Origin: Aeromonas lacus
GTDB taxonomy: Bacteria; Pseudomonadota; Gammaproteobacteria; Enterobacterales; Aeromonadaceae
Direction of reading: 5' to 3'
NCBI RefSeq assembly: GCF_000764665.1
Contig: NZ_JRGM01000154.1
Location: 50,582-114,581 of the forward strand
Length of the DNA: 64,000 bases
Positions 61,105 through 64,000 of this stretch are shown here, one piece after another (the first letter of the stretch is position 1; each line of letters begins with the position of its first letter). The notes under the pieces were generated by a model. The model was not told the DNA's origin and did not search any database. It saw only the letters and a list, made by a program, of their open reading frames with translations. The position numbers and the translations under genes were made by a program.

Positions 61105-61566
61105 TTAATGCAGCCCCTCGATATTGAGGCTGTAGTAGTGCTCATCCTTCTCGATCTTGCCGGTAAAGCGAAAACCGAACGAGGCGTAGAGCTCTTTGGC
61201 AATCCGGTTATCCTCGTCGATCATCAGCAGCACCTCCCGATACCCCTCGCGGCCAAAGTGGGCCAGCAGCTCGCCAAAGACCTGCCGCCCCAGCCCCTGC
61301 CCCATAAAGCGGGCATCCAGCATAAAGCGGAAGATCTCGACCATGTCGCCCGGCGCATCACACCCCTTGTACATGACAAAGCCCACCAGCTCCTCCCCGC
61401 GATAAATCGCTCTGGGCTCAAAGCCCGGGAAGTAGGCCGCCTCCACCAGCGAGATGGCATTGCAGCAGAGATACTGCTCGAACAGGGTGCCCACCCCGTC
61501 CTTGTTGGTTGTCAGCTCGCACACCTCGAAGCAGTTCGAGGCGTCGATCTTCTCGATCCTGATCAT
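61105..61566 (-). CDS. GNAT acetyltransferase
   Basis: A 153-residue GNAT-fold protein with an AGGA site before the ATG. Acetyl-CoA motif ARFMGQGLGRQVFGELL at about 86-102; RFTGKIEKDEHYYSL at the end. The pattern AAYFPGFEPRAIYRGEELVG, FVMY resembles the spermidine acetyltransferase BltD/PaiA group, so a polyamine or other small amine is a plausible substrate, but this is only inferred. It is convergent with anmK. Confidence 0.85.
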   Translation of the reverse strand: MIRIEKIDASNCFEVCELTTNKDGVGTLFEQYLCCNAISLVEAAYFPGFEPRAIYRGEELVGFVMYKGCDAPGDMVEIFRFMLDARFMGQGLGRQVFGELLAHFGREGYREVLLMIDEDNRIAKELYASFGFRFTGKIEKDEHYYSLNIEGLH

Positions 61567-62493
61567 CTACATCCTTCCTTTGTATCCGGCCCGCTGGCCG
61601 CGATAAATAAACCTTCTCCTCTCTCTGCACTGTCATGACGCTGCACAGTCATAACGCTGTACCGTCATCACGGGCAAAACCGGAGGGGTCGCCTGCCACA
61701 ACAACACAGGGTTGTGCGCCCGATGGCAGGCTCAAATTGTTTCACCTGAGTAACAAAGAACAGAAACACCATTTCACTGGTGCAAAAATAGCGGGAAACC
61801 TTGACAACAACCGGTCGGAAAACCGCCATCAGGGCAGGTGGCCGATCCTGACATGCAGGGGTGAAGGGAGTCTGAACGAGCCCGTTTGCCCGGTTCGGCG
61901 CCGCTGAAAATTCATGGCATAAGGCTGATACGGTGAGCCCCTTGCAGCGGCGTGCCACGGGATATCCGGAAAGCCTTTTCACCAGCCCCATGCAAAAGCG
62001 CTGAATTATATTCCCGTTACATCTTTGCTGGGTCGTGAATATCCCGCGGCTACCATATTTTTGCTCTGCCAGATAGTGCTTATAAAAATGCAAAAATAGA
62101 TATTTATGCAGCGAAAAATGAATGCGCTGCCAGCAAGTCTGAATAATTTGAAATTATCCTGAGTGCCAGCCACCCATATTTCTGGCGCCAATACCGTCGG
62201 CGCGGGCCTCGCCCTGCAGGCTGCTAAAAATGGCCGCCAGATGCTTCTTATCATCCCTGAATTGATCCGCATCGGAGATATATTTCAGGGCGTTGAGCCA
62301 TCTCATAGAAACGCGATCCCGGTTTGCATCGCTATTTTGCGGTTCATAGAATCGCGCTTGTCTGAACCCTCTCCCCCTCTGGTGCCGCAATGGTTGCCGG
62401 GCGCGTTATATCGCCGCGCTCTGCCCACATTTTTTGTCGCTGGCGGGAGGAACCCTGACCCCAATAACGATGATTACAACGAGGTGTATCCCA
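61567..62493. other. Long gap without a supported gene
   Basis: About 930 bases. It holds a 16-bp tandem repeat at 61632-61672, with units GTCATGACGCTGCACA and GTCATAACGCTGTACC followed by GTCATCACG. The later half is AT-rich. An imperfect 22-bp palindrome TGCAAAAATAG/ATATTTATGCA is at 62089-62110, 9 of 11 positions paired, about 380 bases before the RidA gene. Frames on both strands are open for up to 160 codons but lack ribosome sites and family likeness. Promoter elements for the RidA gene are probably in the last part; none is clear. Confidence 0.6.
61632..61672. repeat. 16-bp tandem repeat, about 2.6 copies
   Basis: Units at 61632-61647 and 61648-61663 differ at three positions; a third begins at 61664 and breaks off after nine bases. 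Confidence 0.8.
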
Positions 62494-63759
62494 ATGAGTG
62501 GCACTATTATCAAGTCGGCCCGCAATACCCCCAATGCTCCGCAGCATATCGGCCCCTATACCCAGAGCGTGGCCTTCTCCCACTACAACAATATCTCCGC
62601 CCAGCTGCCGGTCGACCCGAAGAGCGGCGCCCTGATCGAGGGTGATATCAAGGCGCAGGCCAGACAGTGCCTCACCAATATCAAAGCCATCGTCGAGAGC
62701 ATCGACCATGTGATGGACGACGTGGTGAAAGTGACCCTCTTCCTGCAAGAGATGGCTGACCTCGAGGCAGTCAACGAGGTCTATCGCGAGTTCTTCCCGC
62801 GCAATCTGCCGACCCGCACCGTACTGGCCGTGGCGGGTCTGCCGCTGCATGCCAAAGTGCAGATGGATGCGCTCATCTCCAACGGCGAAGGCACCTTCCC
62901 GCAGGCGCCGTGCCCGCTGGTGAAGCTCGCCCGCAACAGCGCCCGTGCGCCACAGGACTCGCTCTCCACCCAGACCGTCGCCTTCTCCCACTACAACAAC
63001 ATTGGCGCCCAGCTGCCGGTTGAGCCTGCATCCGGCGCCCTGATTGGCGGCGGTATTCGCGAGCAGGCGGCCCAGTGTCTGCACAATATCAAGGCAGTGC
63101 TGGAGGGGATCGACGTGCCCTTCGACGATATCGTCAAGGTGACCGTCTATCTGACCAATCTGGCCGATCTGGATGCCGTCAACGAGGTCTACACCACCTT
63201 CTTCCCCGACTCCGCCATTGCCCGCGCCGCTGCCTATATGCCGGCCCGCAGCGTGATTGCCGCCTCCGCCCTGCCCATGGGTGCGCTGGTACAGATGGAT
63301 GCGGTCATCTCCCACGGTGACGGCACCCCGCCGCAACTGGTGGAAGACAGACACAATCTGGTGATCCGCCCGCGCAATACCGACAAGGCACCGCGCAGCC
63401 CCTTGCACACCCAGACCGTCGCCTTCTCCCACTACAACCATATCGCCGCTCAGCTGCCGGTTGATCTGGCCACCGGCAAGATCCTGACCGGTTGCGTGCG
63501 GGAGCAGACCGCCCAGTGCCTCAGCCATATCAAGGCGATTGTGGAGAGCATCGGCCATGTGATGGACGATATCGTCAAGGTCAATATCCAGCTCGCCAAT
63601 ATCGCGGATCTGGCCGAGGTGGATGCCATCTACACCAAATACTTCCCGGCCTACCTGCCGGCCCGCACCGTGATCGCGGTGCGCGAACTGCCCGCCGGCG
63701 CGCGAATCCAGATGGATGCGGTGATGTCCAACGCGGAAAGTACCCCGCCGCAGGTGTAA
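62494..63759 (+). CDS. Protein of three fused RidA/YjgF domains
   Basis: A 421-residue protein starting at 62494 after a GAGG site. Three RidA-like domains follow each other at about 5-130, 145-275 and 290-413. Each has the block VAFSHYN(N/H)I-AQLPV (residues 26, 162, 309), a Q-CL--IKA(I/V)(V/L)E helix, a DD(V/I)VKV strand, and P(T/A)R(T/S)V with the conserved catalytic-type Arg (108, 252, 391). Only the first domain keeps the GPYTQ substrate loop; domains two and three have LSTQ and LHTQ. The usual EIEA near the end is QMDA in all three. RidA proteins are homotrimers that hydrolyse enamine/imine intermediates, with active sites at subunit interfaces. A terminator follows; no operon partner. 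Confidence 0.93.
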   Translation: MSGTIIKSARNTPNAPQHIGPYTQSVAFSHYNNISAQLPVDPKSGALIEGDIKAQARQCLTNIKAIVESIDHVMDDVVKVTLFLQEMADLEAVNEVYREFFPRNLPTRTVLAVAGLPLHAKVQMDALISNGEGTFPQAPCPLVKLARNSARAPQDSLSTQTVAFSHYNNIGAQLPVEPASGALIGGGIREQAAQCLHNIKAVLEGIDVPFDDIVKVTVYLTNLADLDAVNEVYTTFFPDSAIARAAAYMPARSVIAASALPMGALVQMDAVISHGDGTPPQLVEDRHNLVIRPRNTDKAPRSPLHTQTVAFSHYNHIAAQLPVDLATGKILTGCVREQTAQCLSHIKAIVESIGHVMDDIVKVNIQLANIADLAEVDAIYTKYFPAYLPARTVIAVRELPAGARIQMDAVMSNAESTPPQV

Positions 63760-63776
63760 GGTTTGTGTTAAATAAT

Positions 63777-63809
63777 AAAAAGAGACCGGCTGATAGCCGG
63801 TCTCTTTTT
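63777..63809 (+). terminator. Intrinsic terminator after the RidA gene
   Basis: A 10-bp GC-rich stem extended by A-T pairs (63777-63790 with 63796-63809, loop TGATA) ending in six T residues. Confidence 0.9.
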
Positions 63810-63904
63810 TGGTAACAGGGAGGGATATTATTTTTATGGCACCGTCTAAAAGAACGCGAACGTCCGATTACGCTTCACCAATCTATTCTACAAATTAACT
63901 TTGT

Positions 63905-64000
63905 TTATCTATTTGGGATTTTTTCCAAAGCCCATTTACTTGGCTCAGCTACAGCTAATATAGGTGCGCAAGCTCTAATATCAACATGAGACATTAAACC
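63905..64000 (-). CDS. C-terminal end of an unidentified gene
   Basis: A minus-strand frame is open from the window edge to a TAA at 63905-63907, encoding 31 residues that include MSHVDIRACAPILAVAEPSK and end LEKIPNR. The sequence is AT-rich compared with the rest of the window. No family can be assigned from so short a piece; it could be a chance frame. The preceding bases 63813-63904 hold nothing I can support. Confidence 0.35.
   Translation of the reverse strand, partial: GLMSHVDIRACAPILAVAEPSKWALEKIPNR

Follow-up and report, generated by a model that had tools for sequence, protein, structure and literature searches.

Three RidA domains in one chain

The DNA considered here, referred to as the window, is a stretch of 64,000 nucleotides from Aeromonas lacus (GCF_000764665.1, contig NZ_JRGM01000154.1, positions 50,582 to 114,581), and the gene of interest within it encodes a protein with three tandem RidA domains (Table 1). 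Rid proteins shield pyridoxal-phosphate enzymes from reactive imines, and for many of them we know of no substrate. A complete RidA trimer within a single chain is the predicted fold of the protein, with its three clefts probably rebuilt in a similar way. The original prediction, made from the sequence, had described three RidA-like domains in a 421-residue chain, each with a conserved arginine and a VAFSHYN block, and this was borne out. The PF01042 profile matches three stretches along the chain (E 6.1e-71), as does TIGR00004, the profile of the RidA subfamily (284.5 bits, above the cut-off of 106.25); the arginines are R108, R252 and R391 and the blocks start at residues 26, 162 and 309. 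The match to three RidA domains lies far beyond chance. Two equivalog profiles score below their cut-offs, the NCBI enamine/imine deaminase equivalog NF008490 (PRK11401.1) at 175.2 bits against 222 and the RutC equivalog TIGR03610 at 128 bits against 169.1.

Proteins with three tandem RidA domains were named 3x-RidA by Niehaus et al. (2015), with EF_0115 of Enterococcus faecalis V583 as the example, and were presumed by these authors to be covalently linked trimers; RidA fusions of two or four domains were described as rare (PMC4433059). The papers cited in this account are represented by excerpts, and among the papers searched the term 3x-RidA occurs in PMC4433059 alone. EF0115 appears in two further papers (PMC3084688; PMC6834293) as table rows that are silent on function, and the numbering in PMC3084688 may be that of another strain. 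The original prediction had known of no described role for such fusions. In these excerpts no function was found and nothing that contradicts this statement, but the layout itself had been named and the covalent trimer presumed in 2015, so that the novelty of the layout is mostly gone. The pocket signature and the spread of the family are additions made here, the excerpts of PMC4433059 giving neither.

Predicted fold

Structure prediction and structural matches gave two models that agree in folding the single chain like a RidA trimer, as had been proposed, and a closed, one-chain RidA trimer is thus predicted. Compared with the homotrimeric RidA proteins TdcF (2uyj), YjgF (1qu9) and AtRidA (5hp7), the modelled units show the same fold, mostly at 1-2 Å over 120-135 residues, the matches of units 1 and 3 coming from the comparison with the first model and that of unit 2 from the second. 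Arg-105, Pro-114 (TdcF numbering) and the salt-bridge pair of the trimer are also kept in 3x-RidA. The window protein differs from the homotrimers in being fused, in the replacement of Gly-31 and Glu-120 and in the addition of VAFSHYN and acidic tails. The AlphaFold predicted local distance difference test (pLDDT) score falls below 50 at residues 132-138.

A single-chain pseudo-trimer fold is also that of the chorismatases (4bps, 5ag3, 5a3k), which the predicted window model matches; identity by structure is 8-14%, and phmmer matched 45 PDB sequences, none of them a chorismatase. The FIST domain of FBXO22 (8ua3) has been described as having a role in protein binding, with no obvious ligand pocket (PMC11185555).

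Pocket residues and a family signature

Residues were assigned to TdcF numbering by motif and spacing, via the RidA of the same genome, and conservation was determined in 91 sequences (273 units) comprising the window protein, the best 80 of 560 relatives and ten more (L089-L098). In TdcF, seven pocket residues are totally conserved, namely Tyr-17, Gly-31, Asn-56, Asn-88, Arg-105, Pro-114 and Glu-120, and Glu-120 would be in the way of a side chain at the Gly-31 position (PMC1884159). Because of this clash, changes at the two positions make sense together. Neither residue is retained in any unit of the window protein, in agreement with the changed pocket suggested by the original prediction, and the RidA motif SGQ reads SAQ, GAQ and AAQ in units 1, 2 and 3. 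Across the set, Gln stands at the Glu-120 place in 90 of 91 sequences in each of the three units, and Ala at the Gly-31 place in 91, 89 and 66, with Gly retained in 25 third units. QMDA had been noted in place of EIEA; it is present in all three units, but only its Gln replaces the pocket Glu, its Asp corresponding to the acid of the RidA inter-subunit salt bridge. This position is D or E in 273/273 units, and the trimer salt-bridge residues are retained.

The equivalent of Arg-105 is present in 82, 91 and 90 of the 91 sequences in units 1, 2 and 3 (263/273 overall), Pro-114 in 91, 88 and 66 (245/273), Asn-88 in 37, 87 and 55 and Tyr-17 in 36, 4 and 24. Tyr-17 is retained in one window unit. 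The GPY loop is confined to domain one in the window, as had been observed, but it is not a family feature, the first-unit place being Tyr in 36/91 and Ser in 44/91. At the place of the pocket-lining Phe of AtRidA (F147), Leu, Ile, Met or Val predominate. The H, Y and N of VAFSHYN are found in 91/91 sequences in each unit, and the acid nine residues past the Gln (E132, D276 and E415) and the Thr two residues beyond it are equally present in all 273 units. SHYN is followed by N, N and H in units 1, 2 and 3 of the window protein, as in 89, 90 and 89 of the 91 sequences. No mention of the Glu-120/Gly-31 change combined with VAFSHYN and the tail signature was found in the excerpted literature, and this family-wide combination is the point that now deserves attention.

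It may be argued that 3x-RidA is a covalently tied, sturdier RidA clearing 2-aminoacrylate and 2-iminobutanoate, with pocket changes that it tolerates and that ancestry has fixed. The residue of AtRidA at the Glu-120 place, E180, contacts the ligand from the adjacent subunit; the E180A mutant, with Ala at this place, keeps at least one quarter of its activity and R165A keeps 2.2% (PMC4960622). Given these activities, an enzyme that has lost the Glu but kept the Arg could still be a deaminase. The RidA of S. enterica is little affected by Ala at the places of Tyr-17 and Glu-120 (PMC4433059), and in 3x-RidA the Arg is kept and the TIGR00004 score is well above its cut-off. We nevertheless regard this explanation as unlikely, if by no means negligible, since ancestry alone would hardly keep H, Y, N, the tail acid and Thr in 273/273 units over five phyla. 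The score against the NCBI enamine/imine deaminase equivalog also falls short of its cut-off, and an ordinary RidA carrying GPY, SGQ, PAR and VEVEA (L001) is already present in the genome. Besides the 3x-RidA gene, the genome contains four PF01042 genes, each encoding a single unit.

The invariant residues also bear on the suggestion that the fold, once freed by fusion, acquired a different chemistry at a new site, perhaps a central barrel around which the His and Asn of the three VAFSHYN hairpins are arranged, or became binding rather than catalytic. The active site of cyanuric acid hydrolase (AtzD/CAH, the Toblerone fold), a YjgF-like concatenated chain, is its central barrel (PMC3758960; PMC4051656). 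A whole-chain fold match to this enzyme was obtained with one of the two predicted models only, and it was not among the 50 structural matches listed for model 1. The His, Tyr and Asn are predicted to lie at a beta hairpin, but the direction of their side chains was derived from strand alternation only, without coordinates, and the Arg and Pro-114 of the outer cleft are kept in the great majority of units; a different chemistry therefore appears improbable. Fusion might even have made 3x-RidA an enzyme class in its own right, a new His-Tyr-Asn set, repeated three times about the pseudo-three-fold axis with the three acidic tails behind it, providing a site of catalysis or binding, conceivably in the central barrel as in cyanuric acid hydrolase, for chemistry other than 2-aminoacrylate deamination; this we consider quite improbable.

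One site or three

The original prediction had raised the possibility of one specialised active site with two structural copies, and the most likely candidate would be the cleft with the unit 2 Arg and insert. The insert, in FFPDSAIARAAAYMP, is present in the window protein and in 85/91 sequences, R244 of the same loop being R in 85/91 with a gap in 6; the unit 2 Arg is invariant (91/91), and unit 2 is the most conserved between genera (0.728, compared with 0.674 for unit 1 and 0.662 for unit 3). Unit 3 of the window protein, moreover, retains just two of the seven TdcF pocket residues. However, the signature residues are equally invariant in the three units, the Arg being retained in each at the frequencies given above, the insert is missing from six relatives of the same order (L092-L096 and L098), and within Aeromonas units 2 and 3 are conserved to the same degree (0.839 and 0.844, with 0.801 for unit 1). 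A single specialised site is thus very improbable. Judged by sequence conservation, no unit is decaying; the three are about equally conserved and have a common signature.

The clefts had also been predicted to be no longer identical. The insert, the N/N/H pattern after SHYN and the smaller number of TdcF-type residues in unit 3 do speak against full equality of the units, but the common signature dominates. The six relatives without the insert form a subtype of 410-412 residues in other families of the same order, L095 and L096 measuring 431 residues from the first possible start. Residues 272-293, which span the end of unit 2 and linker 2-3, were the most conserved of five stretches compared (0.829) although the predicted pLDDT is below 50 at residues 281-288. 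High conservation in a stretch of partly low pLDDT may point to a role in binding or as a lid.

Distribution and history of the family

A scan of named genomes gave 560 relatives, from which the best 80 were taken; the ranking favours full-length kin and the count is biased to that extent. The three-domain layout, for which a search in Aeromonadales and Vibrionales had been proposed, was found in Aeromonas, Vibrio, Photobacterium and other groups. Among these 80 the Pseudomonadota are represented by these three genera, Oceanisphaera, Marinobacter, Laribacter, Gulbenkiania and others, the Bacillota by Clostridium, Desulfosporosinus, Lacticigenium, Alkalibacterium and two metagenome-assembled genomes (MAGs), and other groups by Desulfobacterales, Desulfobulbaceae, one Actinomycetota MAG and one Bacteroidota, so that the relatives span five phyla. 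All 80 have three units at nearly identical spacing, and three VAFSHYN-type motifs are found by the strict pattern in 74, the other six having a variant third motif in the alignment. The nearest named relatives among the matches listed are from Aeromonas. The RidA family protein WP_002367615.1 of E. faecalis (L089), which from its gene order is probably EF_0115, has the same layout and 58.8% identity over 419 residues, and there is no difference in kind between the EF_0115 type and the window protein. Its gene adjoins a family 20 glycosylhydrolase.

Within the genus, 3x-RidA is present in 36 of 37 genomes including that of the window (35/36 of the good ones). Genome samples of the order and phylum, again including the window's own, contained it in 34/295 and 7/398 (E 1e-60), and the class sample in 1/229 at E 1e-40, this being the window's own genome. 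This patchy distribution is likely due to horizontal spread. A 3x-RidA gene, 61.9% identical, is carried on seven plasmids (85-104 kb) of Vibrio parahaemolyticus. In a tree built from the 66 units of 22 sequences and two ordinary RidA proteins, each unit type falls on one side of a branch, with support of 84/84, 88/87 and 100/94 for first, second and third units, the columns being few for the number of rows. The tree fits one ancestral triplication followed by divergence without homogenisation.

The number of units can apparently change by recombination between repeats. Four-unit versions (P0005, P0006 and P0025) have an additional copy of unit 2 (94% and 88% between copies) or of unit 1 (Laribacter hongkongensis, 96%), and with the extra copy 88-96% identical to its neighbour these are likely to be recent duplications. 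A search with one unit as query gave 383 proteins from 395 candidates; 18 of the best 120 were read and 13 scored piecewise. Ten of these, of 136-138 residues and mostly from short metagenome contigs (P0303, P0310, P0312, P0313, P0317, P0320, P0324, P0325, P0328 and P0338), have an end of the unit 3 type (10/10) and a start of the unit 1 type (9/10), and the remaining three resemble pieces of unit 1. A single-unit ancestor was rejected, the mixed ends of the ten suggesting repeat collapse or assembly error.

A phage origin was likewise rejected, with one weak match in PHROGs and two relatives in viral contigs. In a phage collection 26 records were matched, and two among the 20 listed contain the greater part of the query; both lack annotation, are named as Enterococcus phages, and were judged, although not proved, to be host DNA.

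The gene and its surroundings

Table 1. Features of the 3x-RidA gene (window positions) and regulator genes at Clostridium loci (positions within each locus).
Feature	Position	Strand	Basis
Likely ribosome-binding site GAGGTG, ending 7 bases 5' of ATG	62481..62486	+	sequence
3x-RidA gene, 421 aa, ATG start, three tandem RidA domains	62494..63759	+	open reading frame list, profile matches
RidA unit 1, residues 1-131, borders approximate	62494..62886	+	PF01042 at 13-127; alignment to own-genome RidA
VAFSHYN of unit 1, residues 26-32; H, Y, N 91/91	62569..62589	+	motif, alignment
R108, Arg-105 equivalent of unit 1; R 82/91	62815..62817	+	alignment
Q123, replacing Glu-120 in unit 1; Q 90/91	62860..62862	+	alignment
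Tail and linker 1-2, residues 132-145; invariant E132, T134	62887..62928	+	conservation; AlphaFold pLDDT <50 at 132-138
RidA unit 2, residues 146-275, borders approximate	62929..63318	+	PF01042; alignment to own-genome RidA
VAFSHYN of unit 2, residues 162-168; H, Y, N 91/91	62977..62997	+	motif, alignment
Unit 2 loop PDSAIARAAAY, residues 238-248, containing 8-residue insert N-terminal of Arg	63205..63237	+	alignment
R252, Arg-105 equivalent of unit 2; 91/91	63247..63249	+	alignment
Q267, replacing Glu-120 in unit 2; 90/91	63292..63294	+	alignment
Tail and linker 2-3, residues 276-293; invariant D276, T278	63319..63372	+	conservation
RidA unit 3, residues 294-412, borders approximate	63373..63729	+	PF01042; alignment to own-genome RidA
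VAFSHYN of unit 3, residues 309-315; H, Y, N 91/91	63418..63438	+	motif, alignment
R391, Arg-105 equivalent of unit 3; 90/91	63664..63666	+	alignment
Q406, replacing Glu-120 in unit 3; 90/91	63709..63711	+	alignment
E415, tail acid of unit 3, invariant 91/91	63736..63738	+	alignment
Terminator-like hairpin, 17 bases past stop	63777..63809		consensus scan only
MerR regulator with GyrI-like small-molecule domain	L072 8979-9797; L085 8890-9726; L088 8942-9763	-	Pfam (L072, L088); similarity (L085)

When 25 Aeromonas upstream regions, that of the window among them, are aligned, the AGG of the likely ribosome-binding site reaches 80% at its place. The gene likely has its own transcript end at the hairpin; the consensus scan found 5 such sites in the stretch against 2.2 expected. 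Third-position GC of the gene (0.817) resembles that of four neighbours (0.81-0.84) and the gene therefore looks resident. Its left neighbour is a GNAT acetyltransferase gene on the opposite strand (61105-61566). The gap between them (61567-62493) is 927 bases long with a GC content of 0.524, compared with 0.624 within the gene, and its last 260 bases show low conservation across 25 Aeromonas sequences. An antisense open frame of 404 residues (62344-63558, reverse strand) is most likely a by-product of GC-rich codons. An RNA-family search of 61500-64000 gave no matches above gathering score, and no tRNA.

Clustering covered the open reading frames within flanks of up to 10 kb of the 80 relatives and within the final 14 kb of the window; at 32 of the 80 loci the nearest genes were also inspected. 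Besides frames overlapping the gene, an ABC ATPase family (six labelled groups) and LysR (five) form the widest clusters, and both are large paralogous families. Urease-cluster genes lie close to the 3x-RidA gene at five loci in Oceanisphaera and Marinobacter, the gene being downstream of them in Oceanisphaera L052, L059, L083 and L084, and this association was judged incidental. In three of four Clostridium loci a MerR/GyrI-like regulator is divergent from and adjoins the 3x-RidA gene; only 931 bases lie upstream of the gene in the fourth (L082). A MerR-type promoter pattern, derived from the Clostridium loci and situated there between the regulator and the 3x-RidA gene, matches 4/98 loci, L062 included. 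This arrangement suggests small-molecule induction of the Clostridium copies and is offered as a lead only.

A possible mechanism

The reading we prefer, to which we would give an even chance, is that 3x-RidA, as a predicted full RidA trimer, hydrolyses an imine or enamine that bears a carboxylate, and probably a different one from the usual 2-aminoacrylate, in three clefts rebuilt along similar lines. Each of the three outer clefts would lie between neighbouring units, with the Arg from one and the Gln from the next, since Arg and Glu are shared in this way across RidA subunits. The Arg would hold the carboxylate of the substrate. The Gly-to-Ala and Glu-to-Gln changes could be linked, together re-shaping the site at which the Glu of RidA meets the imine, and the tail acid may replace the lost Glu as a mobile lid. 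Imine or enamine hydrolysis would then take place in a pocket re-shaped for another substrate, a difference from ordinary RidA made likely by the unusual pocket residues that the three units have in common.

Several observations weigh against this proposal. The two models have their method and part of their alignments in common, and in a first run of five models the mean pLDDT was near 87 in two and 71-77 in three. The units of the window protein retain 5/7, 4/7 and 2/7 of the TdcF pocket residues, unit 1 is without the Arg in 9/91 sequences (Leu in 6 and Lys in 3), and Gln may be tolerated without a change of substrate. Four-unit variants make up 3 of the 237 distinct homologs listed, the unit number of most others having been taken from length alone; neither these nor the metagenome single-unit chimeras, if real, would be single-chain trimers. 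In the flank clustering no partner gene recurred across genera to indicate a substrate. No activity for any 3x-RidA was found in the excerpted literature, where PMC4433059 names no function.

Significance

The fused form is near-universal in one genus, occurs in five phyla and almost always has three units, and as such provides a clean natural test of the independence of RidA sites. Because one chain holds all three, sites can be disabled singly, which a homotrimer does not permit. It is also a test of the role of Glu-120, as Arg-105 and the trimer contacts are kept while Glu-120 and, for the most part, Gly-31 are replaced in each unit.
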